Shown here one piece after another: positions 38,695 to 58,675 of a DNA stretch of 64,000 bases. The stretch spans positions 1,802,900 to 1,866,899 of the forward strand of contig NZ_CP047593.1 of NCBI RefSeq assembly GCF_009905215.1, given 5' to 3'. The position numbers and the translations under genes are program-made. Under the pieces are notes generated by a model. That model did not search any database. It was not told the DNA's origin and was given only the letters and a program-made list of their open reading frames with translations. The DNA is from Tichowtungia aerotolerans. Lineage in GTDB: Bacteria; Verrucomicrobiota; Kiritimatiellia; Kiritimatiellales; Tichowtungiaceae. Within the stretch, counting starts at the first letter, position 1; every line of letters starts with the position of its first letter.

Positions 38695-38760
38695 ATAGGG
38701 CTGTGTCAGCCTTTTTCAAACGAGAGGGTTCTGAGCTGTATTACTGTAAATCTCTTTTGA

Positions 38761-38775
38761 GTTTACGGATAAACC
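38761..38775. promoter_or_regulatory. Candidate operator GTTTACGGATAAACC
   Basis: One of three near-identical sites (see also 53634 and 55574): arms GTTTA/TAAAC around CGGA, 44 bases before the sulfatase ATG. Confidence 0.6.
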
Positions 38776-38819
38776 GGCTGCAGTTTCAAATGTTCTGGCT
38801 GAAATCGGCCGGGTTTGGC

Positions 38820-40487
38820 ATGAACGTATCCATGGATCGCAGAAGTTTTATCGGAACGGGCGGTGCGGCCGCAGGGCTGCTTTGGGCAGGATGTAAAACC
38901 ACTCCGTCGGCTAAAAAGCCGAAGATCAATATCCTGTTCATTATGGATGATCAGCACCGCGGCGACTGCATCGGTGCGGCGGGCGCGGACTGGCTGAAAA
39001 CGCCGAACCTCGACCGGCTGGCCAACGAAGGCGTTCTGTTCAACCGCTCCTATTCGTCGATGCCGTCCTGCCTGCCTGCGCGCGCCGCGGTTCTGACCGG
39101 CCTGCGCCCGTGGAACCACGGCCTGCTTTCGTTTTTGACGATTCCGAATCAGTACAAGGTGGAGTATCCGCAGCTGTTCACCGATGCGGGCTACCGCACG
39201 CACGTGGCCGGCAAAAACCATTTTTACGGCGCGAAGCACGGCTTCCAGACCTGTGAGGTGGAGGAGATCGATAAGCGGCTGCGGCCCGACGGACTTTACC
39301 GCGACGACTACATGCGCTGGATGCAGCTTAATCATCCCGACAAGGATCCGAAGGGCGGGGCGCCCAGCTTTACCGACCATCGCGGCAACCGCGCCTGGCC
39401 GTACGAGGAGGAGGTCCATCCGACCACCTGGACTGCCGAGCGCGCCAAGGCATTCCTGCGCGAGTACGACGGCGACGCGCCCTGGTTCCTGAAGTTTTCA
39501 TGTCACCGTCCACATCCGCCGTTCGACGCGCCGAAGCGGTTGATCGATTTTTACAAGGCGCAGGATTTGCCGGAGCCGGTAGTCGGCGAGTGGGCTGAAG
39601 AGCAGTACGGGGAATGCCGCGGATCGATTTATAATTCACCGAGTTCCGGGATCGGCCATTATTCCGACGAGGAAATTCATGATTCGCGCGCGGCCTACTA
39701 TGCCGCCATCACCTACGTCGACGAAAAGATCGGCGAGGTGCTGCAGGTGCTCGAAGAGCGCGGCGAGCTGGAGAACACACTGATTCTGTTCACTTCCGAC
39801 CACGGCGACATGATGGGCGACCATCATCTGTGGCGGAAAGTCTATCCGTACGAGTCGAGTGCGCACGTGCCGATGATTATCCGCTGGCCTGACGGGCTCA
39901 GGATTGGGATGCCGCGGGGGCAGAAGCTCGATCATCTCGTTGAGCTGCGCGACATCATGCCGACCTTTCTCGATGCCGCAGGCATTCCGGTTCCGCCGAA
40001 TCTTGACGGCGACAGCATGTTGAAAATTCTGCGCAACCCCGCTTGCGCATGGCGCGAGGTGCTCGATCTCGAACACGGCGCGCAGTATTTTGCCGAGCAG
40101 GCGTACGTTGCGCTGACCGATCAGCGGTACAAATATATTTATCACACGCAGAGCGGCGAACAGGAGCTGTTCGACCTTAAAGCGGATCCGCACGAAACGA
40201 AGAATATCACCGACCCGGCACTGCTGGAACCGTGGCGCAGGCGGATGATCGCCTTCCTCGAGGAGCGCGGCGAAGAGTGGGTCAAGGACGGCGAACTCGT
40301 GGTGCAGCCCCGGCGCATTCGCTACGGCCCCAACTTCGCGAAGCAGATGGTGAAGCCCGCTGATGCGGAGTGCGAGGTGCGCTTCAACAAACCGGAAGAG
40401 CCGCCGGCGCTGGCCGAATACGTGAAACGGCTCGACGCCGTGAACCCGTATGTCGCCAGCGATCCCGACGCCCAGCGGCCGGAATAA
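38820..40487 (+). CDS. S1-family sulfatase, exported
   Basis: A 555-residue arylsulfatase-type enzyme. The N-terminus has a Tat-like twin arginine and lipobox (MDRRSFIGTGG then LLWAGC). The domain starts INILFIMDDQHRGD. The formylglycine motif SCLPARAAVLTG has Cys at the C-x-P-A-R position. Metal and substrate residues appear in FTSDHGDMMGDHH. A C-terminal subdomain follows (FDLKADPHETKNI). It cleaves a sulfate ester from a glycan, possibly iduronate- or galactosamine-type; no maturase gene is in the window. The start is uncertain (38820 or 38832) because no strong ribosome-binding site is visible. Confidence 0.9.
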   Translation: MNVSMDRRSFIGTGGAAAGLLWAGCKTTPSAKKPKINILFIMDDQHRGDCIGAAGADWLKTPNLDRLANEGVLFNRSYSSMPSCLPARAAVLTGLRPWNHGLLSFLTIPNQYKVEYPQLFTDAGYRTHVAGKNHFYGAKHGFQTCEVEEIDKRLRPDGLYRDDYMRWMQLNHPDKDPKGGAPSFTDHRGNRAWPYEEEVHPTTWTAERAKAFLREYDGDAPWFLKFSCHRPHPPFDAPKRLIDFYKAQDLPEPVVGEWAEEQYGECRGSIYNSPSSGIGHYSDEEIHDSRAAYYAAITYVDEKIGEVLQVLEERGELENTLILFTSDHGDMMGDHHLWRKVYPYESSAHVPMIIRWPDGLRIGMPRGQKLDHLVELRDIMPTFLDAAGIPVPPNLDGDSMLKILRNPACAWREVLDLEHGAQYFAEQAYVALTDQRYKYIYHTQSGEQELFDLKADPHETKNITDPALLEPWRRRMIAFLEERGEEWVKDGELVVQPRRIRYGPNFAKQMVKPADAECEVRFNKPEEPPALAEYVKRLDAVNPYVASDPDAQRPE

Positions 40488-40589
40488 ACAGCCGCAAAAA
40501 ACACAGGAAATCACAAAAAGGGGCCGTGGTCTTGGTGTCTTTTTGTGTTCTTTGTGGCGCTAGGATGGATGGAGATATGTGAGAGGCAG

Positions 40590-40735
40590 ATGGAGGGGCC
40601 GGGCATCGCGACCGTCGATGACGGATGCCTGCTGATTTATTCCAAGTGGCAGCCGGAGCTGGAAAGCTCGATGGGCAGGTGTTCAGTCTGAGGGATCCAG
40701 GCGTTCCGGTGATCGAACCGTTTATTCCAAGATAG
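40590..40735 (+). pseudogene. Possible frameshifted gene remnant
   Basis: Plus strand reads MEGPGIATVDDGCLLIYSK...WQPELESS, then after a 1-base shift near 40671 continues DGQVFSLRDPGVPVIEPF to a stop at 40735. Both halves look protein-like and join smoothly if one base is missing. No family was recognised. The remaining part of this 250-base gap (40488-40589) holds nothing I can name. Confidence 0.25.
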
Positions 40736-40738
40736 GAG

Positions 40739-42253
40739 ATGCGAGTGAAGCGAAATTCGGTGGTTGGATTGGGGCTTTGTCTGGCGATGCTGGGGCTCGC
40801 CGCGGACGGCGGAGAGCACGAATTGTTTGAGCCGACGTGGGAGTCGCTGGCGAAGGCGAATACGTCGCCGGAATGGTTCGAGGATGCCAAGCTGGGCATC
40901 TATTGCCACTGGGGCGTTTATTCGGTGCCGCAGAATTTTACGGAATGGTATCCGCGCTTTATGTTTCAGGACGGGCACGAGGTGCAGGATTTTCATAAGC
41001 AGAACTATGGCGATCCGGCCGAGTTTCCCTATCACAAATTCGTGCCGATGTTTACGGCGGAAAAGTTTGATGCGGCGGAGTGGGCCGAGGTGTACAAGTC
41101 GTCCGGCGCGCGTTTCGGCGGTCTGGTGGCGGAGCATCACGATGGCTTTTCGATGTGGGACAGCCGCTGGACGCCGTGGAACGCCAAGGCGATGGGGCCG
41201 AAGCGCGATGTGCTGGGCGAGCTGGCAGCCGAGCTGCGCAAGCGCGACATGAAGGTGATTGCAACCTTTCATCATGCCCGCCAGTTTCAGCGCAATCAGG
41301 GCGCGGAATCCGTGCAGGATCCGGCAGACAGTTTTGACAGTCATTATATTTATGACAAGCGCTACGCCACTGCGTCGGCCGAACCGGTGCTGCAGAAACT
41401 CTATGGCAATATGCCTGAAGACGAGTGGAACCAAATGTGGCTGGGCAAGCTCGAAGAGGTGATCGAGAACTATCAGCCCGACGTGATTTATTTTGACTCC
41501 TGGCTGAATCTGGTGCCGGAGGAATTCCGGCAGCGCTTCTGCGCGGCCTATTACAACCATGCCGCGCGGAACAATAAAGAGGTGGTAATTGTCTACAAGC
41601 AGGACGATCTGCCCGCCGACGTGGCGCTGCTCGATATTGAAAAGGGCGGGCGCATTGAGATCGATCTGAAAAAATGGATGACGGATGACACCGTTTCGTT
41701 CGGTTCCTGGTCCTATACGACCGATTTAAAGATCAAGCCCGCCGCGATGGTGGTGCACAGCCTTGTCGACATCGTCAGCAAGAACGGAAACATGCTGCTG
41801 AATATTTCTCCGCATCCCGACGGGTCGATCCCGCAGGAGCAGAAAGATATTTTGAGGCAGCTGGGGGACTGGCTGAAGGTTTACGGTGAAGCGATTTTTG
41901 ATACGCGCCCGTGGACGGTGCATGGGTTTGGACCGACCAAGCCGGACTTCGGGCCGCACGGCGGCATGAGCACCATCAACTATTACACGCCGGAAGATTA
42001 CCGTTTCACGATGTCTAAAGACGGAAAGGCGGTTTATGTGATTGTGCTGGGCCGGCCCGAGCCGGGCGGAAAACTGTTTTTGTGGAGCTGCGCGCCGCAT
42101 CGCTATCCATTGCCGGGCGCGGTGGAGCGGGTGGTGGAACTTTCGAGCGGCCGGGACGTGGAGTGGGAATCCCTTGATACCGGGAGCTACCTTCATTATC
42201 CGGACATGGATTACAACGAAACAGCCAATGTGTTTAAGATTATTCTTAAGTAA
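40739..42253 (+). CDS. GH29 alpha-L-fucosidase, exported
   Basis: A 504-residue enzyme. A signal peptide is present (SVVGLGLCLAMLGLAADGG). GH29 landmarks are WFEDAKLGIYCHWGVYS, the EHHDGFSMWDS substrate stretch, and PDVIYFDSWLN with the probable nucleophile aspartate. ISPHPDGSIP is typical of the domain's end, and a small C-terminal beta domain follows. It removes alpha-linked fucose. AGGAG abuts the ATG at 40739, so the in-frame GTG at 40745, 6 bases away, may be the true start. A heparinase-like gene follows after 24 bases, indicating an operon. Confidence 0.9.
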   Translation: MRVKRNSVVGLGLCLAMLGLAADGGEHELFEPTWESLAKANTSPEWFEDAKLGIYCHWGVYSVPQNFTEWYPRFMFQDGHEVQDFHKQNYGDPAEFPYHKFVPMFTAEKFDAAEWAEVYKSSGARFGGLVAEHHDGFSMWDSRWTPWNAKAMGPKRDVLGELAAELRKRDMKVIATFHHARQFQRNQGAESVQDPADSFDSHYIYDKRYATASAEPVLQKLYGNMPEDEWNQMWLGKLEEVIENYQPDVIYFDSWLNLVPEEFRQRFCAAYYNHAARNNKEVVIVYKQDDLPADVALLDIEKGGRIEIDLKKWMTDDTVSFGSWSYTTDLKIKPAAMVVHSLVDIVSKNGNMLLNISPHPDGSIPQEQKDILRQLGDWLKVYGEAIFDTRPWTVHGFGPTKPDFGPHGGMSTINYYTPEDYRFTMSKDGKAVYVIVLGRPEPGGKLFLWSCAPHRYPLPGAVERVVELSSGRDVEWESLDTGSYLHYPDMDYNETANVFKIILK

Positions 42254-42277
42254 GGTCGTCGCGGCCGGGAGTGGATC

Positions 42278-44518
42278 ATGAAAAAAATGATGGGGTTTGT
42301 TTTAACGCTGGCGCTGGCCGGCACGGCGGCGGCGCTGGACATTACGCAGGAAAAGGTGGCCGAAAAATCTGTGGCGGAACGCCCGCGGCTGGTGCTGCCT
42401 GCCGGCGGTTGGGATGTTGTGCGGCAGCGAGCCGAAACGAGCGCGCGGCATCGGGCGTGGTATGCCGATGTGAAGAAAAAGGCCGATCAGCTCGCCGCCG
42501 CCGAGGTGAAGATCGGGCGCAATACGCAGGACGACCTGATGACGCTGGCGCTGGTTTGTCGCATCGAGGGCGACAAAAAATATCTGGCCAAAGTGGAGGA
42601 GATCCTGCCGGCGGCCTATGTGAAAAAGATGTGGAGCAAGGGCTGGAAGCTGGATCAGGCGATGGTGTCGGTCGGCGTGGCCGTGGCCTACGACTGGCTG
42701 TATGACGAGCTGCCGGACAGCCTGCGCCGCGCGACTGAGGAGAATCTGGGCAAAGTCAGTCTGCCGTGCTACCTCAAGAGTTTTGACAGCGACATCTGGT
42801 GGACCCGTGCCGAGCGCCCGGACAATGTCTACTACAACAACCATAACGGTGTTTGCAACGGCGCCGCGCTCGTGGTGGCTGCGGCGCTGCTCGACAGCAA
42901 GGAGTTTGCAGGGTCGGCGCAGGAGGTGGTGGCCAGGGCCCTGCCGTCCATCGAAAACGGCACGCTCAACGGCTTGCTGCCGGGCGGGGCGTGGGACGAG
43001 GGCTCGGGCTATTTCGGCTACGGCATGACCGGCATGACGCTCGGGCTGTCATCGGTGCAGAACAGCCTCGGCACGCTGTTCGGTTTGCTGGAGCATCCGG
43101 GGCTTGAAAAAACCGGCGCATATCTCGCTGCAACCACCGGGCCAGCCGGAACCTTCAACTACGGCGACGGCACGTCGCGCATCAACCCGGCCTACTGGAT
43201 GAGTTGGCTGGCCGGTGCCGTCGAAAGCGAAAAGCTGGCGTCTTCGTTCCGGCACATGCAGGGGCTGCAGGTTCATCAAGGATCGGTGCTGGGCCTCTGC
43301 TGGGATGATCCGGCGCAGAAGGGCAGCGAGATTGCTTTCCCGCCGGCCGCCGGGTTTGGGCGGATTGAGGTCGGTGCGCTCCGCCAGCGCTGGGACGATC
43401 CGCTGGCCGCATGGGTCGGCTTTAAGTTTGGACGCCCCTGGCAGAGTCACGCGCATTCGGACGTCGGGAGTTTTGTCTATGACTGGGGCGGTGTTCGCTG
43501 GGCCGTCGACGTGTCAACGCCGCCATACCTGAAGGACTTTTTCAGCTATGAAGATCAGCGCTACCATTTCTATGGAGCCAAGCCCGAAGGCCACAATACG
43601 CTGGTAATCAATCCGACGGACGCCTATCAGCAGATCATCGACAGCGACAGCCCGATCGTGCGGGTGGAAGACGGGTCGGCCGTCGGCGACATGACCCCGG
43701 CGTATGCTGCGCACGCAAAATCTGTGCGGCGGGAGTTCCGGCTGGATTCGGAGAGCGGCGAGCTGATTGTGAAGGATGAGCTGCGGCTGAAAAATCCATC
43801 CAAGGTCTGGTGGTTCATGCACACTGCGGCACAGGTTGAGTTGAAAGACGAGGGCCGCATCGCCGTATTGTCTTCCAACAACAAACAGGTCGAAGTTCGC
43901 GTCGAGGTTCTGGAAGGACAGCCACAGCCGCGGTTTGTTGCCGAGCCCGCTCGGCCGCTTCCGACCTCGCGTGTTGTCCGGGGCGAATATCCCAATGAGG
44001 GGAAAATCACGCGGCTTGCGCTGCAGTTTCCGGATGCGCAGGAGCTGACCTTCTGCGTCGCACTGCGGCCGCTCGATACGCCGGAACTCCGGATGGGTTC
44101 GGTTAAGGAAATTCCGCTGGCGGCAAAAAATGTTCGCGTGAGTGAAGGCGATGCTGCCGCCCTGCTGGATGGCGATAGGGCGACGGTTTGGTCCGCCAAC
44201 AGTTATATTGAACATAACGGAGACAAACAGTTTGTCTCCCAGTTTATCGATATTGAACTAGACGCACCCGTTGAGGTGTCGGCGGTGGGGCTTGGCTTCG
44301 ATACGGCGTTTCAGCGGCGCTACGATTTCAATATTTATGTTTCCAATGATGGCAAAACGTGGGAGCAGGTGTTTCACGGGCAAAGCGGAAAACAGAACGG
44401 CGAACAGCGGTTTCGTTTTGCGCCGCGCCAGACGCGCTTTGTCCGAATCGAAGGCCTCGGCAACGAGCGTTATCAAAACCGCTTTAACAGATTGAAACTT
44501 TACAGTTGCGGTGATTAG
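42278..44518 (+). CDS. Heparinase II/III-like lyase with C-terminal discoidin (F5/8 type C) domain
   Basis: A 746-residue exported protein. The signal peptide is MMGFVLTLALAGTAAALD. Residues ~30-350 form a helical toroid (VYYNNHNGVCNGAALV, with the Asn-His pair). Residues ~370-620 form the heparinase II/III beta domain with QSHAHSDVGSFVYDWGGVRW, a conserved phrase of the family. Residues ~625-746 form a discoidin-like domain (VWSANSYIEH ... VRIEGLGN) that probably binds the glycan. It eliminates at uronic acids; the substrate is not determinable by eye. It is downstream of the fucosidase in one operon. Confidence 0.85.
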   Translation: MKKMMGFVLTLALAGTAAALDITQEKVAEKSVAERPRLVLPAGGWDVVRQRAETSARHRAWYADVKKKADQLAAAEVKIGRNTQDDLMTLALVCRIEGDKKYLAKVEEILPAAYVKKMWSKGWKLDQAMVSVGVAVAYDWLYDELPDSLRRATEENLGKVSLPCYLKSFDSDIWWTRAERPDNVYYNNHNGVCNGAALVVAAALLDSKEFAGSAQEVVARALPSIENGTLNGLLPGGAWDEGSGYFGYGMTGMTLGLSSVQNSLGTLFGLLEHPGLEKTGAYLAATTGPAGTFNYGDGTSRINPAYWMSWLAGAVESEKLASSFRHMQGLQVHQGSVLGLCWDDPAQKGSEIAFPPAAGFGRIEVGALRQRWDDPLAAWVGFKFGRPWQSHAHSDVGSFVYDWGGVRWAVDVSTPPYLKDFFSYEDQRYHFYGAKPEGHNTLVINPTDAYQQIIDSDSPIVRVEDGSAVGDMTPAYAAHAKSVRREFRLDSESGELIVKDELRLKNPSKVWWFMHTAAQVELKDEGRIAVLSSNNKQVEVRVEVLEGQPQPRFVAEPARPLPTSRVVRGEYPNEGKITRLALQFPDAQELTFCVALRPLDTPELRMGSVKEIPLAAKNVRVSEGDAAALLDGDRATVWSANSYIEHNGDKQFVSQFIDIELDAPVEVSAVGLGFDTAFQRRYDFNIYVSNDGKTWEQVFHGQSGKQNGEQRFRFAPRQTRFVRIEGLGNERYQNRFNRLKLYSCGD

Positions 44519-44548
44519 CCGCGCAAAGGCCCGAGCATTTGTGGCAGG
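44519..44548. repeat. Intergenic repeat unit, copy 1
   Basis: Starts CCGCGCAAAGGCCCGAGCAT. It matches 62497-62526 at about 25 of 30 positions and directly follows the lyase stop. Confidence 0.55.
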
Positions 44549-44567
44549 ACCGGCCTCCGACCCTGCA

Positions 44568-44978
44568 CTATTTTATCGAGGGCATGGTTTCAAAAGAGGG
44601 AATGTCTTTGGGAAGCCAGTCCTTGTGATCTCTCCAGTAAATGTTGGCCTTGGGAGAAAAGTCGAATTCGTTATCAATCGTTCCGGCGCGAAGATACAAA
44701 ATGCCGGGGCTGTTTTCTGCTTTTGAAAATATCGGTGTTCCGCAATTCGAACAGAAGTTTCGATGGATAGGTTTTCCGCTGTCTCCACGGGATACATAGG
44801 AGGTGAGGGTGTTTCCTTTGAGAGCAAACGTCGGTTCTGATACGCCGACGATTGCGGAGAACATGGAGCCACTCGTTTTTTTACACGACTTGCAGTGACA
44901 GTTGGCCATGAACAGAGGTTCTGTTGATACGCTGTATTTAATGTTTCCACATAGGCATGATCCAGTGATTCTGCTCAT
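44568..44978 (-). CDS. GFA-family zinc-binding protein
   Basis: A 136-residue member of the glutathione-dependent formaldehyde-activating (GFA/CENP-V) fold. The zinc cysteines are in GSCLCGNIKYSV, CHCKSCKKTSG and FCSNCGTPIF. The length is normal. Most members are not true formaldehyde enzymes, so the function is open. It stands alone and opposite to the catabolic genes. Confidence 0.88.
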   Translation of the reverse strand: MSRITGSCLCGNIKYSVSTEPLFMANCHCKSCKKTSGSMFSAIVGVSEPTFALKGNTLTSYVSRGDSGKPIHRNFCSNCGTPIFSKAENSPGILYLRAGTIDNEFDFSPKANIYWRDHKDWLPKDIPSFETMPSIK

Positions 44979-45173
44979 TACAATATTCTCTATCTTGGTT
45001 GTATTTTGTTAGTAAAGAACGTTTTCCATTTGTGGAAGACGAGGTCGTTTCGCAATCACTCCCTGATTGACAACATTGTTTTCATAAGTCATGCATGTTA
45101 GTCAACGTCTTGTTTTTTGTAAATATTCTTTTTCGAAAGTGGACTGTGTTGGGAAAGGACGTTGGCGTCATAT

Positions 45174-45260
45174 CCGGCGAATGCCCGGTCGGGGACCGGG
45201 CCTGCAAAACTATTGCAGTCGGTGTAGCTGTCGGCCAGGTGTCTCACCCGGCGAAGTCGT
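45174..45260. repeat. GC-rich intergenic repeat, copy A
   Basis: Contains the perfect hairpin GCCCGGTC GGG GACCGGGC (45183-45201) followed by CTGCAA, and ends CCCGGCGAAGTCGT. Confidence 0.6.
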
Positions 45261-45400
45261 TTTTGCGTATTTTGCAGGAAAAAGTTCGATGTGGAGTGAC
45301 CGCAAAAATGCGCGAAAGAGTCGCGAGAATTGAGGATTCAGGAGCGTTTAAAGAAGAAGCCCCACGTAAGGAAGACGTTTTAAACGATTCGTGATCATTT

Positions 45401-45468
45401 CGGGTGAGCACCCGGTCGGGGAACGGGCCTGCAACTGTAGGCCGGGGGCCCTCTCCCGGCGAAGTCAT
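45401..45468. repeat. GC-rich intergenic repeat, copy B
   Basis: Same order of elements as copy A: CCCGGTCGGGGAACGGGCCT, then GCAA, ending CCCGGCGAAGTCAT. The middle is shorter and the hairpin is imperfect. Confidence 0.6.
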
Positions 45469-45492
45469 GTAGAGGCATTACGGCCAAGTTGG

Positions 45493-45517
45493 TGGGGCAG
45501 GCGAAATGCCTGCCCCA
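45493..45517. repeat. Perfect 10-bp hairpin
   Basis: TGGGGCAGGC GAAAT GCCTGCCCCA, 16 bases beyond the stop of the large PL8-like gene. It may help terminate that gene but lacks a T run in its direction. The GGCAGGC/GCCTGCC core resembles the hairpin repeats near 62.5 kb. Confidence 0.6.
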
Positions 45518-45532
45518 TATTATATTATTTCG

Positions 45533-48500
45533 TTACTGGGCGGACTCGATTTCGAGTTTGATGAACTGTTTTTCTGTTCCGGCGGGAACGGTGTGGCGCA
45601 GGGTGGTTTCGACGCAGTTGCCGCCGCGGTCGATGACGGAAATCACGCCGGGTTTTTCAAAGAGGCTTTGGCGGGCATTGACGTATGGCGGGGAGACAAC
45701 GAGGAGCTCTGCCCACTCGGATGTCAGCTCCGGCGCGCTTTTGACTGTCAGACGCAGCCCTTCGTTTTTGGACACGCCGTTGTTGAATGTGAAGGTGTAG
45801 TCCATGCTGTTGGCGTTCGTCGTGGCGGCGCGGATGGTGGGGCGCAGCTCGCCGCTGGCGGTCAGCGGGCTCTGGCCGAGGCCGTATTCGAAATGGTTGC
45901 TGAGGCCGTCGCCGTCATAGTCCGCTTCCGGCCCGCCGATGCTGGCGGGCTGGCCGGCGCCGCCTTCGTACTGCGCTTTCCACGCCGAATAGGTTTCCCC
46001 GGAGGAGAGGGTCATTTCAATGCTCTTGCCTTCCGTGCAGTCAAATTCCAGGACGGTTGCCTCGGAGGAGGTTGAGATGACGCGCGCGTTGTCGGGAACG
46101 GCCTGCGCATTCCAGGAGCCGCGCAGGGTGACCTGGACTTTGGAGACCGGACTTTCGTTTGCCAGATCGCCGCTGGGGATGGACCACACGTGGTGCGGCG
46201 AGCTGGCGGTTAAACGGAGGTCGGGGTCGCACACGCTGATGGTGAGCGCATCGCCTGTTTCGCGGGTCATGGCCAGGCACGGTTTGTCGGCCGCCGCCAG
46301 CGGGCCGTGCGCGACGGCGCCGGCGTTGAAGAGGGCGTAGGCGGTGGTTGTGGCGGCGGGATCGCCGGTGTATTCGACGATGTGCGCGGCGGCCGCGCGT
46401 TCCAGTACGCGGTAGGTCGGCGCTGCGGCGAAGGTCTGCATGGCTGCGGCGGTTGTGTCGACGAGGATTGCGTAGTGGTATTCGCCGGCGGCGTTCCCGT
46501 TGTATCCCGGCGAGGTGCCGTGGTCGATCCAGGCGGTCGCAAAGTCGCCCGTGGTGTCTTCCGTATTGCGGTTGTTGCGGGACAGCTGGGTCGTCCGGGA
46601 AATGTGCAGCGGCTGGTTTTCGGGAACATAGTAGCCGTTGGAGGCGGCATCGATCAGCCAGTGCGGCGCGGAGGTGTCCGCGGCCTGTTCCAGCGGGAAG
46701 GCGGTGGCGGCGGTTCCGTCGATGACGGTGGGTGTCGCCGGCGTCGCGAGATGGGTTTGGAACAGGGTGGTCGCGGTCGGATAGCTCGCATCCGTATTGG
46801 CAATGCCGCGGCCGAGGGCGACGATCAGGTCGTCAAAGAAGAAGAGGGTGGTGCGGCCCTGCACATTGCGGTCGCGCCACGGGTAGTCGTCGAGTTCCAT
46901 CACAAACGCGCCGTCCCGGTTTTCCAGGCTCAGGCCGCCGGTGAAGCGCTTTTTCATCAGCACGTTTTCGTCCCAGCTCTTTTTGACCAGCAGGGAGGCG
47001 GGCAGGGTGATGGCGGTGGTGCCGGGAATCCGGTTCCAATCCCAGCCGTCTTCGACCACGCCGCTGGCTTCGCGCGTGACCGGATTGCCCTGGTTGAAAA
47101 TCTGGATGCCGCCGTGGCCGAGGTAACGGCCGAACTCATTTTCATGGTAATAGTGTTCGGTGGAGGCGCTGTACTGGCTCATGCCTTTGACGCTGACCAT
47201 CCAGTTGTCGCGGCGGTGGACGGAGAGCAGGCTGTAGTTGTGCGCCCAGTGGCCGGAAGGCGGGGCCTCGGCCGGCGTGCTGAGCGCGGCGGTCTGTTCC
47301 ATCAGTTCGACGGCTCCCAGCGTGTTCATGTACATAATCGTCGGCTCGACGTCGGCAATATGTTCGTTGACCGGGCTGGAGGCGGGTTCCCACAGGCGTT
47401 TGAGCACGCCGGCCATTTCAACGTCGACGGCCGCGCCGGTTTCCGGGTTCCCGGACAGGGCCATGTAGGCGAACGACGGCATGATCTCGAGCAGGATTTG
47501 GTTGTTGAACGGGAAGCGTCCGCAGACGCCCATCGGGACGTCGTACTGGTTGCACATGTTCCGCAGTGTGAGCAGAACGTTACGCAGGTTCTTTTGAGAG
47601 TTGTCCGAAAGAGCAAACGGCGTGTCGTGCAGGAAATAGTTGACCAGCGCCGAGAGGTGGAACGCCTGCGGGGCATAGGCACCGGAGTACGGAATGTAGT
47701 GATGGAAGCCGGTGTAATCCGGCTTGATCGTGCCCATCCAGCCGTGCGCAATGGACAGCCCGTTGTTCTGCCAGAGCAGCAGCCGGCTCATGTCGCGGAC
47801 CTTGGCTTTGAGCTGTTCCTCGGTCGCGTCGTTCATCAGGAGAACGGCGATCAGCCGGTTCAGGTAGATGCTGCGCAGTTCGTCGGCGCTGGCGCCGGTC
47901 CGTTCGGGATCGGTGTAGATTTTTCCCAGGTTGGAATACCAGCGGATGGCGTTGCGCTCGCGTTCCAGCCGGCCGGTCGCCCGCAGCTCGTCGCGCATCA
48001 GTACGACGGCGTTCATGTAGCCGGAGGTGCGCAGCGGTTCGAAATTCATCGATCCCATGGCGCTGCCCTCGTGCCAGCCCTGGTCGTGGCAGTGGTCGAG
48101 CAGGTCGAAAAACTTCTGTTTGGAGGCGTCGGAGCCGTTGAGTTTGCAGTCCATGGCCAGCGGAATCATGATCTTCTGGAAAACGTCCCGCCCGATATCC
48201 GGCGAGCCGCCGTTTTCTTTTGTGAACAGCGGGGTGCCGGTGATGGTTCCGTTTGCCCGCTGGATGTTCAGCGCGGCGTAGTTGTTCAGTCCGTCCTGGA
48301 TATACCGCTGGAGCGCCTGGTGGCGCGAGCCGATGGGATCGAGCATGCCCCAGGTGATGTCGTCCATGTTGAAATAGGGGCCGGTTCCGGCGGTGACTAA
48401 AAAGCCGCCGCCGTCGATGATGCCGCCGACTCGGTCGGCGAATGATCCCGGAGTTCCTGTGATCGTGAGGGCGGTATCATCGCCGCTGTCGAGGGCGTTG

Positions 48501-49726
48501 AGCATTCCATTGTTGGCCGTGCTCAGCGGGGTCCACGAAACGCTATGGACGTCAAGGTGGCCGTTGAGGGAGAGCAGGTCGAGGCTGTCCGAGGCATACC
48601 ATGCGGAGTCGGCGGCGGAGCGGACGAGGAAACGCATCTGGATTCCGGAAAAGGAGCCGAGGGTTGAAAACTGAATAAAGTCGACGGTCTGCTGTGTCGC
48701 GTTGGCCGGCGGCTGACTGCCGGAGGCGTCGAAGATGGTGTAGGCGTAGCTTCCGGCGGTTGCGGCCCCCTTGCGCCAGCGCAGCGATCCGGTGTCTTTG
48801 AGCTGGATGTTGTCGGACGAGCCGGCGTTGAAGCCGCCCCAGCGGTAGCCGGTGTCCTGGCTGGTCTGGACGGTTTCGTTGCCGTTGCCGGCCTTATCAA
48901 TTGTTTGGCTGGTGCCGGAGATCGTGAACGATTCGGCGATGCTGGGTTTCGGCGCAATGGCGGTGCCCAGGTTCCAGCGGTCAAAGCGGTCGAGGATGGC
49001 GGCAAAGGCATCCCGCTCGGCCTGGCCGGCGCTCGCCGGCAGGGCGGTCGGCGGGGTTTGGCTCCATGCGTAGGAGCTGAGCCAGAGGCTGCCGGACGGT
49101 TCGTTGACAAACGGCTGCTGATAATCGCGCTGGCGCGAGCTGATGATGCTTTCCTTGAACTCGATGCGGTCGAAAAAGAGCGTTCCGGCCTGGCTGGCGG
49201 CGGGGGCTTCGATCTGCATCATTTCCAGCGTGCCGCTTCCGGAGTAGCCGGGAACCGCGGCGTCTTCCGTGAATTTTACGAGGACGGCGCGCCAGCCGGT
49301 AAAGTTGAGGCCGAATTCAAAGGTGTAGCGGGGATTGCCGGCGGCCAGTTCGGCGGCCGAACCGAAACGGAAGCTCAGGGTTTCATCGGATGCGGCATCG
49401 TTATAAATCCAGCCGCTGATCCCGCCCCCCGCGACGCTGCCCGCGGCGGCCAGTCCCGCCGGGTTGTTTGCGGTGAGAACGGCCGCGCTGTCGGTGCGGT
49501 TCCACTGCAGCGAGCGGGTTCCGTCCTTGAAATGAAGGGCGCTCGTTTCGAGCGTTGCACCGGGGCCGGTCGTCCAGGTTGCCGGGACCGTGCTCTCCTC
49601 AAAACTTTGTATCTGTCCGAATGCGAAGAGCGGGCAGAAGATCAGCAGACCTATATTTACGTGAAGGATATTTGAAATACTTTTCAGTTTATACGTTGTT
49701 CGCAGCTTTAATGTTTGAGTCATCAA
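45533..49726 (-). CDS. Large secreted PL8-like lyase (chondroitinase/hyaluronidase type) with shared C-terminal module
   Basis: A 1397-residue exported protein. After the signal peptide, residues ~30-190 resemble the N-terminal lyase domain of chondroitin ABC lyases (FGLNFTGWRAVLVKF). Residues ~190-420 include a lectin-like insert. Residues ~430-760 form the helical catalytic domain, with GTIKPDYTGFHHYIPYSGAY (probable catalytic His and Tyr) and MGVCGRFPFNN (Arg). PL8 beta-sandwich domains follow (SVHRRDNWMVSVKGMSQYS). The last ~150 residues are the shared module (DYDGDGLSNHFEYGLG ... FIKLEIESAQ). It cleaves uronic-acid-containing glycans by elimination. It is divergent from a second PL8-like gene. 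Confidence 0.83.
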   Translation of the reverse strand: MMTQTLKLRTTYKLKSISNILHVNIGLLIFCPLFAFGQIQSFEESTVPATWTTGPGATLETSALHFKDGTRSLQWNRTDSAAVLTANNPAGLAAAGSVAGGGISGWIYNDAASDETLSFRFGSAAELAAGNPRYTFEFGLNFTGWRAVLVKFTEDAAVPGYSGSGTLEMMQIEAPAASQAGTLFFDRIEFKESIISSRQRDYQQPFVNEPSGSLWLSSYAWSQTPPTALPASAGQAERDAFAAILDRFDRWNLGTAIAPKPSIAESFTISGTSQTIDKAGNGNETVQTSQDTGYRWGGFNAGSSDNIQLKDTGSLRWRKGAATAGSYAYTIFDASGSQPPANATQQTVDFIQFSTLGSFSGIQMRFLVRSAADSAWYASDSLDLLSLNGHLDVHSVSWTPLSTANNGMLNALDSGDDTALTITGTPGSFADRVGGIIDGGGFLVTAGTGPYFNMDDITWGMLDPIGSRHQALQRYIQDGLNNYAALNIQRANGTITGTPLFTKENGGSPDIGRDVFQKIMIPLAMDCKLNGSDASKQKFFDLLDHCHDQGWHEGSAMGSMNFEPLRTSGYMNAVVLMRDELRATGRLERERNAIRWYSNLGKIYTDPERTGASADELRSIYLNRLIAVLLMNDATEEQLKAKVRDMSRLLLWQNNGLSIAHGWMGTIKPDYTGFHHYIPYSGAYAPQAFHLSALVNYFLHDTPFALSDNSQKNLRNVLLTLRNMCNQYDVPMGVCGRFPFNNQILLEIMPSFAYMALSGNPETGAAVDVEMAGVLKRLWEPASSPVNEHIADVEPTIMYMNTLGAVELMEQTAALSTPAEAPPSGHWAHNYSLLSVHRRDNWMVSVKGMSQYSASTEHYYHENEFGRYLGHGGIQIFNQGNPVTREASGVVEDGWDWNRIPGTTAITLPASLLVKKSWDENVLMKKRFTGGLSLENRDGAFVMELDDYPWRDRNVQGRTTLFFFDDLIVALGRGIANTDASYPTATTLFQTHLATPATPTVIDGTAATAFPLEQAADTSAPHWLIDAASNGYYVPENQPLHISRTTQLSRNNRNTEDTTGDFATAWIDHGTSPGYNGNAAGEYHYAILVDTTAAAMQTFAAAPTYRVLERAAAAHIVEYTGDPAATTTAYALFNAGAVAHGPLAAADKPCLAMTRETGDALTISVCDPDLRLTASSPHHVWSIPSGDLANESPVSKVQVTLRGSWNAQAVPDNARVISTSSEATVLEFDCTEGKSIEMTLSSGETYSAWKAQYEGGAGQPASIGGPEADYDGDGLSNHFEYGLGQSPLTASGELRPTIRAATTNANSMDYTFTFNNGVSKNEGLRLTVKSAPELTSEWAELLVVSPPYVNARQSLFEKPGVISVIDRGGNCVETTLRHTVPAGTEKQFIKLEIESAQ

Positions 49727-49991
49727 TTCACCTTCATTGTTAAGAACGGGGATTCCCTTGGCTTCACTTTAATTTGATCAAATCAAACTCCTGCGCGCGG
49801 GAGAGATCAACGGGCTTGCAGGTTTAACCGATTACTAAAGGGTTTTTTTTGAAAGAGGGGCTTTTGCGGCGGGGATGCGTTTACGGTTTAACCGGATAGG
49901 ATCCCAATAAAACGCCTGTCTTGTTCATCTATCGTTTAAATTATGAGTTGGAAAAGCGGTATTAGACTGAAACCTGAAGGGCGTTGTTATA
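49727..49991. promoter_or_regulatory. Divergent promoter region of two PL8-like genes
   Basis: 265 bases, AT-rich in parts. GTTTACGGTTTAACC (49879-49893) is a variant of the operator found at 38761, 53634 and 55574, and GGTTTAACCGATTACTAAAG (about 49821-49840) holds a further half-site. GAAGGTG lies before the minus-strand start. Confidence 0.5.
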
Positions 49992-52900
49992 ATGAGCAAA
50001 GCAGGGTTGGTAATTATAGCGGGTCTCGTATTTTGTTTTTGTTCGGGTGCTTTTTCGGCACTGACAACGAATGAGATCAATGCGGCGCATGCGCAGATCA
50101 AGGCGCGTTACCTGCAGTTTCTGAAAGGAACGCCGAGTTCATTTGACGGACCGCTGGGCACAGAGATTGCGAACCGGTTTGTCGGCCGGGTTGACCTGCG
50201 GGTGCGGCAGGCGCAGGCGTTTGATTTTTCTGCAGATGCCGATATTGTTTTTTCGCTCTTTCCGGAAGAGGTGGGGTTTGAGGAGGAAAAAGAGATTTAC
50301 AGCGTATTCCTTCAAAGCTGGCTGCCGGGGCTGGCGCTGGCCTATACGGTGGATGCGCCGGGCAATTCATATTATCTCGACCCGGCGGTGAAGGATCTCT
50401 ATTTCCAAGCGCTGGAATATCTGTATGGCCGCGGGATTAAGAGCGGCATGACGTTTCATCGGAACGCGACGCGCCAGCTGAATAATCCGCCGCCGCCGGG
50501 CTGCGCGAATATTGTCGATATGGAGCTGCGCATGGGTTCGCTCTGCCAGTCGGTGCTGCTGATGGAGGAGTATGCGGCCGGCGAGTCGATTTTTGAAGAA
50601 ATGAGGGCACTGGTCGAATTCCTCGAAATGCTGGGATATACGTCGGGGCATGTGGAATATTGGATTCCATATAACCCGCCGCCCGGGCTGGACCATCTGG
50701 TGCAGTCGGATGCCATGCAGATTTATCCGGATGTGACTTTTGTTTCTGCAATGCTCAAGACCAATGTAACTGACCGGCACAACGCGCTGCTGGATGCGCA
50801 GAATGTATTTACCGATTCGCTTAAAATCGTTCCCGGCTGGGCGGATACGATCAAGCCGGACTTTACCGGTTTTCATCACCGCGGGATCTATGGCAACTCC
50901 TATACCGGCGGCTTCCTTCCGCAGGCGGCGTTCGGCGTGTATGCCCTGCAGGGAACGCCGTATGCGGTGGATGCGAATTCGGTTTCGAACCTGCGCGAGC
51001 TGGCGCTGACGTATCGCCTGTACTGCCAGAAGTTCGGAATGCCGTTTGGAATTCGCGGCCGTTTCCCTGAACAGACGAACCTGATCCGGGAAGATGCGTT
51101 CGGCACCTATGTGTTGTTCGCCTCTTCGCTTGGAATTAATGACGAGTCAATGCATTCGCTCTTTAAGCGACTATGGGACGTTACGGATGTGAACGTCGGG
51201 TTTGTCTTTGACGGCGGGCGCGGAAAGATTCTGCGTGGATTGTACCTTTCCAACATGCTGAAGGAGCTGGATGCATTGACCGCTTTGCCGGAAGACAACC
51301 CCGAGGGATTCTGGATGAAGCCGTACGGCGGGCTGGCGATTCATCGGCGCGACAACTGGATGGCGGCGGTGAAAGGATACGGCAAGTATGTTTGGGATTA
51401 TGAAACCGGCGGCGGACAGAATGAGTACGGCCAATATCTCAGTCACGGAATGCTGACTATTTTTAATGGGACGTCAGAATATACCGATAAGGACAGTGGA
51501 TATGATCTTTCCAAAGGCTGGGACTGGTACCGTCAGCCCGGAACAACCGCCGTGCGTTTTCCGCTGACGGCAAAACAGACGGACACCCATCGCACGTTCA
51601 GCCCTGAAACCTTCATGGGCGGCGTTTCCATGAATGGACAGAACGGAGTGTTTGGAATGATTCTCAACGATCCGGAATTCGGCGACGGCATTTCGATTAA
51701 TTTGAAGGCGCGCAAGAGTGTTTTCTTTTCCGATGATTTGATCGTGATGCTCGGCACCGGCATTTCCGGCGGGGATGGACAGAACCGCGTGGAGACCACG
51801 CTGTTCCAGAGCTGTCACACGTCCGTCGGCCAGACGATGAAGAAGGACGGCGAGGCGTTTGCCGACGGGTCCGAAACCGTTACGGCTTCCGGCAGCATGA
51901 CACTGGCGGATCCGTTTGGGAACGGCTATTACATCCCTGACGCGCAGGGGGTGAAGCTGTTTCAGGGCGTACAGAATTCATTTGACGACAACGGCAGCAC
52001 ACCGACCAGCGGGGAGTACTCGACGGTGGTGTTTGACCACGGCTTGTCTCCCGCGGCGGCGGAGTATGAAGCCGCCATTTTGGTCGGCGGCGGGGAAACC
52101 GTCGGCGCGCTGGCCGCTGCGCCGGCGGCTCGCTATCAGGTGCAGCGCAAGGATGACAGCGTGCATCAGGTTTATTTCCCTCAGGCGGATCAAACCGCAT
52201 ATGTGTTTTTCGATGCGGCTGCAAATGCCAGCAGTTTGGTTGAGAGAGTTGATACGCCCTGCCTGGTGATGACCGAACCGGTTTCCAACGGTTGGAAGGT
52301 TGCCGTGGCCAATCCGGATCTCGGGATTGTGGATGCCTCTCAGGAGATGACCTTTGACTGGATTAACGATGCCGATGAACGGCAGTACCTTCCCAGTACA
52401 GTGCAGCCGGTGGAGGTTCGGCTGCAAGGACTGTGGGAGCTGCGCGGAACGAACTCCGCAGTGTCCGTAACGAGCTATGCCGGCGGGGATACGCTTCTGC
52501 GATTTGATTGTGTCGACGGGGCTGAAGTGGCCGTGGAGGTGGCGGCGTTCGGCGAGGAGACGGCGGCGCTCGATTTCAGACAGATTGCTTTTGAAGATGA
52601 TTTTAACAGTTATGCTGCGGATGCGCCGGTTCCGGTTGATGGTCAATGGACCTCGGTCAGCTATTATGAGCCGTCCAATGTATTTGTTCATGTGCGGACA
52701 GATACCGGAAATGTTTTCGGGGAAGGTGCCGGTAATAAATATCTTGGCTGCCGCGATGCCGGAGGGCGCACATCAAATCTGTTGGCCCAGGATATTCTGG
52801 ATGCCGATGCGGTGCGCGTGAGCTTTGATTTTATGGAGCCGGACAACGAGCTGACCGGGGCGCTGTCGGTTCGGGTTGGTGTCAACAGCGTGAAGGTTGC

Positions 52901-53633
52901 TGATGAAGATGTTGTCGGAGGAATCCGCCCGGTCGATGGTTTTTTTGATCCGGCGGGGACTTATGAATGCGGCGCGGTGGTACACGCGGATATATATTTC
53001 AATGAGCAGTCCGCAGAGATTACTTATATTGCGCCGGATGGAAACCCAAGCACGTTGGCCGCCGGTAAAATGGATGTCTGGTTGAATGGAATCAACACCG
53101 GGGACGATGTGGTTAATGATCGGTTTCTTGGCACGGCCAGTCTGTCGCCCATCAGGAGTCTGCGGTTTGAAACCTACTCTGCCGGACAGAATGAGGTTTG
53201 GTTTGATAACCTGGAGGTGGCGGTGGGGGTTCCCGTTGTTGTCGGGGATCCATTTGCAGTCTGGGCTGTTGAGTATGGATTGGTCGGGGACGATGCGGCG
53301 CAGACGGCCGATCCGGATGGCGACGGAATGAATAACCTGTTGGAATTTGCCCTTGGAGGTATTCCGACCAACCGCAGTGATAGCGCGGCTATCTTACCGA
53401 TTCTTGGGGAAATCAATCCTTTCTTTTTCGAGTACATCCATCGCCGGCGGGTGGATTCTACGCTGAAATACAGTGTCGAGCGAACCGGTGATTTGGTGTC
53501 CGGCAACTGGGCGACCGGCGGCGTAGCGGTGACCGGTTATGGGCCGGATGGCGAAGGGTTTGAACGGGTTACCAATTCTGTGCCGGCAGAGGGCGCAAAC
53601 CAGTTTGTCCGGTTGAAAATTACCGGCGAATAG
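49992..53633 (+). CDS. Large secreted PL8-like lyase with lectin-like domain and shared C-terminal module
   Basis: A 1213-residue exported protein. The signal peptide runs to about GAFSALTTNE. It lacks the N-terminal sandwich of its neighbour, and the helical catalytic domain begins almost at once. Key segments are DTIKPDFTGFHHRGIYGNSY and MPFGIRGRFPEQ, matching the His/Tyr/Arg positions of PL8 enzymes, and then AIHRRDNWMAAVKGYGKYVW. Residues ~855-1080 are a beta-sandwich (FEDDFNSYAAD ... VWFDNLEVAVG), and the last ~125 residues are the shared module (DPDGDGMNNLLEFALGG ... FVRLKITGE). An exact dispersed palindrome lies at 52283-52297. Confidence 0.83.
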   Translation: MSKAGLVIIAGLVFCFCSGAFSALTTNEINAAHAQIKARYLQFLKGTPSSFDGPLGTEIANRFVGRVDLRVRQAQAFDFSADADIVFSLFPEEVGFEEEKEIYSVFLQSWLPGLALAYTVDAPGNSYYLDPAVKDLYFQALEYLYGRGIKSGMTFHRNATRQLNNPPPPGCANIVDMELRMGSLCQSVLLMEEYAAGESIFEEMRALVEFLEMLGYTSGHVEYWIPYNPPPGLDHLVQSDAMQIYPDVTFVSAMLKTNVTDRHNALLDAQNVFTDSLKIVPGWADTIKPDFTGFHHRGIYGNSYTGGFLPQAAFGVYALQGTPYAVDANSVSNLRELALTYRLYCQKFGMPFGIRGRFPEQTNLIREDAFGTYVLFASSLGINDESMHSLFKRLWDVTDVNVGFVFDGGRGKILRGLYLSNMLKELDALTALPEDNPEGFWMKPYGGLAIHRRDNWMAAVKGYGKYVWDYETGGGQNEYGQYLSHGMLTIFNGTSEYTDKDSGYDLSKGWDWYRQPGTTAVRFPLTAKQTDTHRTFSPETFMGGVSMNGQNGVFGMILNDPEFGDGISINLKARKSVFFSDDLIVMLGTGISGGDGQNRVETTLFQSCHTSVGQTMKKDGEAFADGSETVTASGSMTLADPFGNGYYIPDAQGVKLFQGVQNSFDDNGSTPTSGEYSTVVFDHGLSPAAAEYEAAILVGGGETVGALAAAPAARYQVQRKDDSVHQVYFPQADQTAYVFFDAAANASSLVERVDTPCLVMTEPVSNGWKVAVANPDLGIVDASQEMTFDWINDADERQYLPSTVQPVEVRLQGLWELRGTNSAVSVTSYAGGDTLLRFDCVDGAEVAVEVAAFGEETAALDFRQIAFEDDFNSYAADAPVPVDGQWTSVSYYEPSNVFVHVRTDTGNVFGEGAGNKYLGCRDAGGRTSNLLAQDILDADAVRVSFDFMEPDNELTGALSVRVGVNSVKVADEDVVGGIRPVDGFFDPAGTYECGAVVHADIYFNEQSAEITYIAPDGNPSTLAAGKMDVWLNGINTGDDVVNDRFLGTASLSPIRSLRFETYSAGQNEVWFDNLEVAVGVPVVVGDPFAVWAVEYGLVGDDAAQTADPDGDGMNNLLEFALGGIPTNRSDSAAILPILGEINPFFFEYIHRRRVDSTLKYSVERTGDLVSGNWATGGVAVTGYGPDGEGFERVTNSVPAEGANQFVRLKITGE
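52283..52297. repeat. Dispersed palindrome, exact copy
   Basis: TTCCAA CGG TTGGAA inside the second PL8-like gene (S-N-G-W-K); the only exact copy seen right of 36 kb. A one-mismatch copy is at 50403-50417 in the same gene. Confidence 0.75.
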
Positions 53634-53649
53634 GGTTTACGGTTAAACC
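53634..53649. promoter_or_regulatory. Candidate operator GGTTTACGGTTAAACC
   Basis: Arms GGTTTA/TAAACC around CGGT, directly after the PL8-like stop and 120 bases before the beta-helix protein start. Confidence 0.6.
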
Positions 53650-53768
53650 TGAAGCGTCCGCAAAAAATCTGGAGAACCTTGACAGATCGTGGCAGAAACG
53701 AAACTAGCCCGGGGGGCTTAATAGATAATCAAATAGGAGCCAGCTTACTAATAGAAGGAGGCAGGGAA

Positions 53769-55511
53769 ATGAATACAATGACAGCAATCAAAATATGGAC
53801 ACTAGCTATCATCGCAGGTTTTGTTGTTCAGGCAAATGCAATTGAAACCCGGTTTAATACGGGCGGAAGTTGGACCAATGCTGCAAACTGGTCCGAGGGG
53901 GTTCCAACTATCAACGATCTGGCGCGCCTGCAGAATCCTGTGGTAGCCGACATCGACTCGGTCGAGGTGATCGGCGGACTCAATTTTCGCGGAGATGTGA
54001 ATTTGGGAGAATCCATTATCAACATTAATAACGGTGGATCGCTGACATCGGACGGGACTCAGTTTGCCGGAATCAACCGGATTGGTTCGGACGGAGATGC
54101 AACCCTGAATATTAATGACGGCGGAACGGTTAATTTTTCAGGAACAGCTGCTTTTGAAGTGGGGGAAAACAGCAGTGACTCGGGATATGTCAATGTGAAT
54201 ACCGGTGGCGTGCTGCAGGTGTCGCAGGTTACGCATCTGGGGACGGACAGCGGTTGTGTCGGGAATTTGACGGTCGCTGGGGGCGCCGCAACCTTTTCTG
54301 ACAGTCTGCTGGTTGGTAATTCTTTAGGAGGAACGGGGGTGGTCACGATCACGTCCGGTACGTTGACAATAAATACGGTTCTTCAGATGGCGTACAGTTC
54401 CGACGCAGCTGTCGGTATTGTGGAGATGAGCGGGGGAACATTATTTCACAATAATGGAACCATGCTGGTCGGTCGTAAAGGAGTTGCGAATTTTAATCAG
54501 TCAGGTGGCGAGGTTAATGCCAAGGATATCGTGGTGGGAAATATGGCTGGAGGAAACGGCGCAATGAATATTTCCGGAGGAACGAATCTTCTGAGCGGTG
54601 CGATGACCCTGGCGCGTGTTGATGGCGCAGTCGGTGCGCTGAATATGAGCGGCGGGTCGATGATTGTTAGCTCAATGTTGGTTGGTAAAGAACTGGGTTC
54701 GGTTGGAACACTCACCTTGAGTGGTGCAGATACATATCTCAAAGCATCTTCTCTTTCTCTGGGGGACGTCGGAGCCAGCGTAAGCAGTTCGATTGTCGTG
54801 AATGACGGAACCTTTCAGGTTCATGCAATTCAGTCGGATTCCAACAGCGCTGAAGAATCAATTCACGTTGCTGGTGGTGTGTTGAAGCTGCGTCACATTA
54901 GCGGAGCGACCGGATTTGATGATGCGGTGGCCCTGATTGACGCCGGCGTTCTGACCTGGGATAAAGGCGCGCTGGGGACGTTGGCTTCGACCATTGATCC
55001 CGCAACAGCAACCATGTCCTGGACCAATGAGTCAGGAATCGTCCTGTATGCCGATACCAATACGAACAATACCCATTATTATTATATGTGGGCAGAAGCG
55101 GAAATGCCGGTGCCGACGTTCAGTGACTGGTCGACCGATTTCGGGATGACCAGCAATAATACGTATGCGGATGACTTCGACGGCGACTTCCTCAGCAATC
55201 TCGCTGAATATGCGCTGGGCAGCAATCCGACGGATGCCGCGGATGCCGGTGCGGTTTCCGCTGTAAACGGTGAAAACTTCCTCTATATCTACAACCGTCG
55301 CACGGATGCGGTGGATCGCGGCTTGACCTATGAGATGCAGAACGCAGATCTTCTGTCCAGCGGAACCTGGACGAATGAATATGTGGAAGTCGGAACATCC
55401 GCTCCGTTCACCGATGCGCTGGGGGATGAGTTTGAAACAGTCACCAACAGCATTTCGATGAGCGGCAAAGACATGGGATTTGCCAAGCTGAAAATCACGA
55501 TCAGCGAGTAA
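53769..55511 (+). CDS. Secreted beta-helix repeat protein with shared C-terminal module
   Basis: A 580-residue exported protein; ATG 53769 follows a strong AAGGAGG site, and the longer opening is rejected. The signal peptide is KIWTLAIIAGFVVQANA. Residues ~25-430 are repeats of the form GxxNxSGGxxxLSGAMTLAR (autotransporter-associated beta-helix type), with phrases such as MNISGGTNLLSG and LNMSGGSMIVSS. Residues ~455-580 are the shared module (DFDGDFLSNLAEYALGS ... FAKLKITISE). No catalytic residues are evident; adhesion or glycan display is likely. It has its own operator and terminator and so forms a single-gene unit. Confidence 0.8.
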   Translation: MNTMTAIKIWTLAIIAGFVVQANAIETRFNTGGSWTNAANWSEGVPTINDLARLQNPVVADIDSVEVIGGLNFRGDVNLGESIININNGGSLTSDGTQFAGINRIGSDGDATLNINDGGTVNFSGTAAFEVGENSSDSGYVNVNTGGVLQVSQVTHLGTDSGCVGNLTVAGGAATFSDSLLVGNSLGGTGVVTITSGTLTINTVLQMAYSSDAAVGIVEMSGGTLFHNNGTMLVGRKGVANFNQSGGEVNAKDIVVGNMAGGNGAMNISGGTNLLSGAMTLARVDGAVGALNMSGGSMIVSSMLVGKELGSVGTLTLSGADTYLKASSLSLGDVGASVSSSIVVNDGTFQVHAIQSDSNSAEESIHVAGGVLKLRHISGATGFDDAVALIDAGVLTWDKGALGTLASTIDPATATMSWTNESGIVLYADTNTNNTHYYYMWAEAEMPVPTFSDWSTDFGMTSNNTYADDFDGDFLSNLAEYALGSNPTDAADAGAVSAVNGENFLYIYNRRTDAVDRGLTYEMQNADLLSSGTWTNEYVEVGTSAPFTDALGDEFETVTNSISMSGKDMGFAKLKITISE

Positions 55512-55531
55512 TCATCTCATCTTGCTCTTCG

Positions 55532-55565
55532 GGCCCGGATGCTGAAATGCTCCGGGCCTTTTTTT
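55532..55565 (+). terminator. Rho-independent terminator
   Basis: GGCCCGGA (55532-55539) pairs with TCCGGGCC (55551-55558) and is followed by seven T, 20 bases after the beta-helix stop. Confidence 0.88.
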
Positions 55566-55573
55566 GTCCTGAA

Positions 55574-55589
55574 GGTTTACGGATAAACC
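55574..55589. promoter_or_regulatory. Candidate operator GGTTTACGGATAAACC
   Basis: Same site as at 38761, 68 bases before the third PL8-like gene and just after a terminator, so within the promoter of the three-gene operon. Confidence 0.65.
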
Positions 55590-58600: not shown

Positions 58601-58675
58601 GGCGGTGGGCAAACCGGGGTGCGCATTGAGTTGCAGCATGGGCTGGCTGAAGAGCTGTTGTTCGTGAGGGATTAG
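55658..58675 (+). CDS. Secreted PL8-like lyase with N-terminal sandwich domain
   Basis: A 1005-residue exported protein; ATG 55658 follows GGGAAAGG and begins a signal peptide (TAALFLFLPLVSLSSVFN). Residues ~20-205 are the chondroitin-ABC-lyase-like N domain (NLNFKGWRAIWVHF). The helical domain contains DTIKPDYSLYHHRSAYQSAY and HPGVSGRIQTRR, the probable catalytic region. The beta domains include STHRRDGWMAAVRGWSQYVW. It ends without the shared C-terminal module of its two paralogues, suggesting another location, for instance the periplasm. It is the first gene of an operon with a sulfatase and a PL12-like lyase. Confidence 0.85.
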   Translation: MNRKTAALFLFLPLVSLSSVFNEYADKITTGTYSFENPDPLKGWNAVNGSVGISSKRAKVGDVSALWAWEQGGGLILENPKGLKEACEPYDGGSPEKYERKYVKPGLEGGVKLWVYNEVPSDSQLFLQVGHDTDSVIINPRYRIPVNLNFKGWRAIWVHFEQDARVEGYAGPEEMNCMALVPGAGTSGALYIDWVNFVSYMSLKRHSDWQVTNNKPTEERYDSYVVLEYDQGLRNLKTASFGEQQKSAFQTLEERYEFLVLGSEQGRSPWLQKFNAQLEKKYRTAHKTFQGLGISQKDGVLNGEPLFAIRDEHALEGSPIYQNLGAPLLFPLALEYRLTGNPKALDQLMTALDYLADQGWAAGSALGTADHRIRVNGYANAVALIRQELEESGRLGRESESLKWFSMLGAAFCTPEGEGVNTDLIRGGAIPKLLAVMLMPDGSEKAGAMSGLVDYFNQVCAFAPGYSDTIKPDYSLYHHRSAYQSAYGVSMLTTMTLIDWMLDGTVYQLSAESKTNLREALKAQLAMASKYDLHPGVSGRIQTRRALNTHLLPAYAFMAGLEGEFKRLYEPKWNTLGMPGLTYSGTLGTVEQMARRAGLDVEGVGAPDGHFTFPYAAYSTHRRDGWMAAVRGWSQYVWDFESGSKSENDLGRYLSHGALFIISEEGFVKSAQDLDTGYHWGFLPGATTKALPVEETVFKYVATPKYLECKHRNYTDETFCGGVNMAGNGFFSMKLHDTVAPDDERILFDDSFRATKSYFFVDDRIYCLGTGIENTDERFSTATTLFQNTTDFEPQLNDGLIRDATGNAYVLIGNPEIEIFRGDQNSYGKGRKPCSGPNVRAWINHGKAPSDASYEYMVAVNGASPSVPFEVLQKDSTAHIIDHRSSVRPITAYAVFEPENFKGQGVIAAVDTPLLLMSATNSAALKLAVADPDLRLKKWGHNMSFMPREIVQAEAEPHTASITLAGEWKLQQAVDGVEIIPGGGQTGVRIELQHGLAEELLFVRD

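Follow-up and report, generated by a model that had tools for sequence, protein, structure and literature searches.

The catabolic genes analysed here in the Tichowtungia aerotolerans genome form part of a genuine, conserved regulon, whose type is known and whose operator is uncommon. The shared palindrome, RGTTTACGRNTWAACY (16 bp, a consensus derived from 19 sites in three genomes), is very probably the operator of a LacI-family protein encoded at genome positions 1870773-1871816, which, judging from sequence, would control genes of glycosaminoglycan (GAG) catabolism. The window, i.e., the whole 64,000-nucleotide stretch that was analysed, covers positions 1802900-1866899 of a single contig of 3.88 Mb, and window numbering is used below unless genome positions are indicated. 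An earlier note on this DNA had proposed a candidate local regulon with a shared operator and had advised looking for a LacI/GntR-type gene; a local regulon, probably under a LacI-type regulator, is supported by the clustering of the sites around a lacI gene.

Palindromes in the window and in the genome

In the window, GTTTACGG[A/T]TAAACC was found in three exact copies, all on the plus strand (38761-38775, 53635-53649 and 55575-55589), and a variant with one mismatch, GTTTACGGTTTAACC, was located at 49879-49893 between two PL8 genes. The earlier note had listed this variant and near-identical palindromes at 38761, 53634 and 55574, with coordinates at most one base off, and had placed them in promoters; all four indeed precede catabolic genes (Table 1). 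In the window, GTTTA-N2..6-TAAAC matched the three exact copies alone (100 shuffles gave a mean of 0.04 and a maximum of 1). The earlier note, which had seen no copies elsewhere in the window, missed a weaker operator, AGTAATCGGTTAAACC, on the minus strand at 49821. The same 16-mer recurs identically upstream of the orthologous PL8 gene in a metagenome-assembled genome (G004, C113:5777).

The window operators are even 16-bp palindromes located 45-134 bp upstream of likely gene starts. The sites at 38761, 49879, 53635 and 55575 are at -59, -113, -134 and -83 relative to the likely starts with signal sequences at 38820, 49992, 53769 and 55658, respectively. Two ORFs as called by program begin ahead of the operator, at 38658 and 55547, and extend across it; these are probably not real starts. 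The sulfatase at 38820, the fucosidase at 40739 and the heparinase II/III-like gene at 42278 are on the same strand and possibly form a single operon. No Pfam match was obtained for the protein at 53769-55511 in a Pfam search.

Table 1. Predicted operators and associated genes (window numbering unless marked as genome positions)
Feature	Position	Strand	Remarks
Operator AGTTTACGGATAAACC	38760-38775	+	26.0 bits; upstream of sulfatase
Sulfatase (PF00884)	38820-40487	+	likely ATG start, Tat/lipoprotein-like signal
GH29-type fucosidase	40739-42253	+	after sulfatase 38820
Heparinase II/III-like	42278-44518	+	after GH29-type fucosidase
PL8 lyase	45533-49723	-	divergent from PL8 49992
Weaker operator AGTAATCGGTTAAACC	49821-49836	-	13.5 bits
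Operator CGTTTACGGTTTAACC	49878-49893	+	23.6 bits; upstream of PL8 49992
PL8 lyase	49992-53633	+	
Operator GGTTTACGGTTAAACC	53634-53649	+	27.5 bits
Secreted protein	53769-55511	+	ATG with Shine-Dalgarno; "beta-helix protein" of the earlier note
Operator GGTTTACGGATAAACC	55574-55589	+	27.2 bits
PL8 lyase	55658-58675	+	first gene of operon
Sulfatase	58679-60418	+	
PL12 heparinase III-like lyase	60415-62424	+	
Sulfatase	62637-64000	-	continues beyond the window to 64070
Paired operators	genome 1867047 and 1867068 (64148-64163, 64169-64184)	-, +	between sulfatase and GH3-DUF2264-lacI
Paired operators	genome 1874935 and 1874957		between ROK-DUF3604 and SSF-HAD
Operator	genome 1900872		before 257-aa protein and PL8

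A refined motif, STTWACGRNTWAACY, had nine matches in the whole genome, all at genome positions 1841660-1900887 (59 kb, 1.5% of the genome) and each at the 5' end of a unit of the PL8, sulfatase, GH3-DUF2264, ROK-DUF3604 or SSF-HAD type. They run from 38761 to 34 kb beyond the window end, and the regulon reaches equally far, with four further operators by the refined motif. The pattern GTTTA-N4-TAAAC with CG following the first arm was likewise confined to 1.84-1.90 Mb of the genome. The scan suggested in the earlier note gave few hits in unrelated gene interiors: eight sites with up to one mismatch were found genome-wide, six around the window and only two, at genome positions 297137 and 649013, within unrelated ORFs, and these two were discarded for that location. 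In a 144-kb region, where 0.35 matches above 16 bits were expected, the sole other match above this value had 16.7 bits and was within a gene (genome position 1915929).

A separate repeat, TTCCAANNNTTGGAA, was present in 567 copies genome-wide, within and between genes, versus 0 for the reversed control; its window positions are 5672, 16918, 22285, 27402, 29808, 29985, 35167 and 52283. It was also dense in sampled stretches of G053, G004, G015, G035 and G033; most of the other families that were sampled lacked it. Close inverted pairs followed by TTTTTT (e.g., genome positions 1894970/1894992) are terminator-like, and the uptake-sequence repeats of other bacteria form similar pairs.

A LacI-type regulator and its predicted regulon

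The LacI-family gene (67874-68917 in window numbering) is located 3.9 kb beyond the right end of the window. The statement in the earlier note that the regulator is not encoded here was thus correct for the window but misleading, because a LacI-family gene, of the LacI/GntR type it suggested looking for, was found inside the regulon. The encoded protein contains a LacI HTH domain (PF00356, 56.5 bits versus a cut-off of 27) and a periplasmic-protein-like sugar-binding domain (PF13377, 32.4 bits versus 26.5). Since lacI is separated from the preceding DUF2264 gene by 133 bp in the window genome, their cotranscription is likely but less certain there. The ROK protein P0002 was rejected as the regulator, as the ROK domain alone was matched, without an HTH.

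Close lacI orthologs were found in three of the 43 genomes of the order, the window genome included (72-77% identity), the other two being Pontiella sulfatireligans F21 (77%) and G004 (72%). Clustered sites were observed only in these three genomes, whereas the other 40 had 13 motif matches compared with 21 for the reversed control, i.e., no excess. In all three genomes the sites stand upstream of orthologous operons, so the comparison of related promoters recommended in the earlier note came out in favor of the regulon. The lacI gene ends the site-controlled operon PL8-PL8-sulfatase-PL12-GlcN6P isomerase in P. sulfatireligans and the site-controlled operon sulfatase-GH3-DUF2264 in G004; the corresponding units of P. 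sulfatireligans lie on contig 2 at 2.08-2.13 Mb. The three LacI orthologs share exactly the same recognition helix, TTVSLALRNHPRIS. The motif and a lacI ortholog were both missing from G016, a genome taken as P. desulfatans F1. LacI and its P. sulfatireligans ortholog are 77% identical, close to the 81% seen for a housekeeping protein that resembles prolyl-tRNA synthetase, so vertical descent of the locus with losses is a possible explanation, as opposed to horizontal transfer.

We propose that LacI would act as a dimer and occupy a single operator at each promoter, except for two divergent promoters, where it would occupy a pair spaced by 21-32 bp. The predicted targets are the PL8 lyases, the PL12 lyase, sulfatases, GH3, DUF2264, the ROK/DUF3604 unit and the SSF transporter unit, and lacI would be cotranscribed with its own target genes. 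Occupancy by LacI would block transcription; here we infer both the binding and repression rather than activation. Release may occur when an oligosaccharide or monosaccharide from a GAG such as chondroitin sulfate binds LacI.

The operator is common to GAG lyases, sulfatases and downstream enzymes. The PL8 lyases have chondroitinase domains, PL12 resembles HepC, GH3 is nearest to beta-N-acetylglucosaminidases, and DUF2264 matches solved glucuronate dehydratases in the PDB. This enzyme set therefore points to a GAG, and the substrate predicted from it is probably of the chondroitin type. Chondroitin 4-sulfate supports growth of P. sulfatireligans, which has the ortholog locus (PMC6388578); this fits but is unspecific, because P. 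desulfatans F1 can grow on it too (PMC6388578), although the genome taken as that strain has neither the motif nor the ortholog. Elsewhere in the window genome, at G000:C1:1632451-1634145, there is another GH3 paralog (63% identical), with no motif nearby in the genome scans.

Recognition helices and operator cores in distant relatives

Distant relatives were sampled as 83 LacI loci from the phylum (17-20 kb each, 30-40% identity). The search for recurrent palindromes was too noisy at first and became usable once restricted to gene-poor DNA. In this unbiased search, GTTTACNNGTAAAC came up next to two pairs of LacI relatives. The core TTTACnnGTAAA occurred 14 times over the 83 loci, exclusively beside LacIs with the helix xM[TS]VSL[AS]; 8 of the 13 loci with an xM[TS]VSL helix had it, compared with none of the 70 others (Fisher 3e-8), and the remaining 5 relatives with a matching helix had no such core in the sampled locus. 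In a 40-locus test set, the core was found in 3/8 matching-helix loci versus 0/32 (p 0.006), a test that was not fully pre-planned because the relaxed core was examined only after the exact-site rule had failed. That rule, which required exact GTTTAN4TAAAC sites near each xMTVSL LacI, was true for 1 of 8 test-set loci and was rejected. At L148 and L190 the core site is ~100-120 bp before lacI itself.

The LacI of the window genome carries Thr instead of Met at a key helix position, and no core was found in the loci of L181 and L210, whose helices are ATTVSL or VTTVSL. The link between helix and core is thus not absolute. Upstream of LacIs with the helix KMTVSYSL, TTTTACCNGTACAA was observed at L145 9387 and L146 9410 (oriented with lacI), which suggests a related but different operator and a helix-to-operator code. 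Within a LacI subfamily, such a link between residues of the recognition helix and the operator sequence would provide a directly testable DNA-recognition rule. In the window genome, GTTTACAGTAAAC at G000:C1:3647394-3647406 precedes a different LacI gene (L045) by ~80 bp and is probably the operator of that paralog itself, with odd spacing. A tandem repeat of four copies with 175-bp spacing was seen near the LacI relative at L163 (10627-11184, oriented with lacI).

Operator geometry, mode of action and known systems

The axis of the palindrome lies between G and R in every site, so that the central pair is GG or GA and the CpG is displaced by 1 bp from the dyad; the central CG pair usual in LacI operators is absent. 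Ravcheev et al. (2014) reported a central CG for 1173 of 1303 LacI regulators, while the centre was another one or degenerate in 78 (PMC4052901); the off-dyad operator is therefore not a new type but one found in a minority. Across the three genomes, the spacing of the paired sites is 21, 21 and 32 bp in one divergent promoter and 22, 22 and 22 bp in the other, near two or three whole helical turns, whereas the PL8/PL8 pairs (57 and 69 bp) do not fit whole turns; these counts are not independent, because the 22-bp and 57-69-bp pairs are partly ancestral.

The palindromes could be non-regulatory repeats, such as terminators, mobile element ends or uptake-type repeats, as they come in near-identical copies and the one at 55574 follows a terminator-like hairpin. 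Such an origin is highly improbable, however, given that there are nine copies only, all 5' of one functional gene set, and that they are conserved at orthologous promoters whose flanks diverge. It is also improbable, though less so, that the sites belong to one of the 18 other LacI-family genes or to a regulator of another family, with the neighbouring LacI controlling something else. The genome has 19 LacI-type genes, and an off-dyad CpG is atypical of LacI (PMC4052901), but the readable recognition helices of the paralogs all differ from that of the regulon LacI, three genomes have the sites together with lacI, and independent relatives are accompanied by the same core.

The regulon LacI might also be an activator or a polar dual regulator instead of a plain repressor, which we consider unlikely. 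The orientation of the sites is uniform, with GTTTACG read toward the served gene at 10/10 sites of the window genome (two-sided p 0.002) and at 8/9 unambiguous sites in the relatives (p 0.04), but in divergent promoters sites were assigned to genes by proximity. No -10 element at a fixed distance downstream of the sites was found, the best offset in non-site DNA, +49, being ~2 sd above the mean among ~110 offsets. The majority of characterised local regulators of the LacI family repress. A Verrucomicrobiota LacI subfamily with polar operators, in which the CpG is off the dyad on the upstream side relative to transcription, is a tentative and somewhat doubtful idea; if it is true, the homodimer sits asymmetrically and may contact RNA polymerase or need one orientation.

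In the literature searched, neither a description of this regulon nor a described transcription factor for GAG breakdown in this sulfatase-rich group was found; the present analysis connects this process with a regulator, its operator and a set of genes. The predicted repressor system resembles the LacI-family local carbohydrate regulons (RegPrecise; PMC4052901) in its LacI HTH and periplasmic-binding-protein-like domains, its palindromic operators of even length, which in those regulons lie 30-140 bp ahead of sugar catabolic genes, and a regulator gene that belongs to its own regulon, and differs from them in the operator centre, with GG or GA and the CpG one base off the dyad. The text of Ravcheev et al. 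makes no mention of Verrucomicrobiota (PMC4052901). The protein matches PurR, CcpA and LacI across the DNA-binding domain, with the hinge Leu kept. The usual hinge in these proteins is N-x-V-A-x-x-L, whereas here it is NPMVSALM. As in PL8-type chondroitin/hyaluronan lyase loci, PL8 lyases and sulfatases are accompanied by a GH3 near beta-N-acetylglucosaminidases and a DUF2264 protein like glucuronate dehydratases, but the control predicted here is of the LacI type with dispersed operators.
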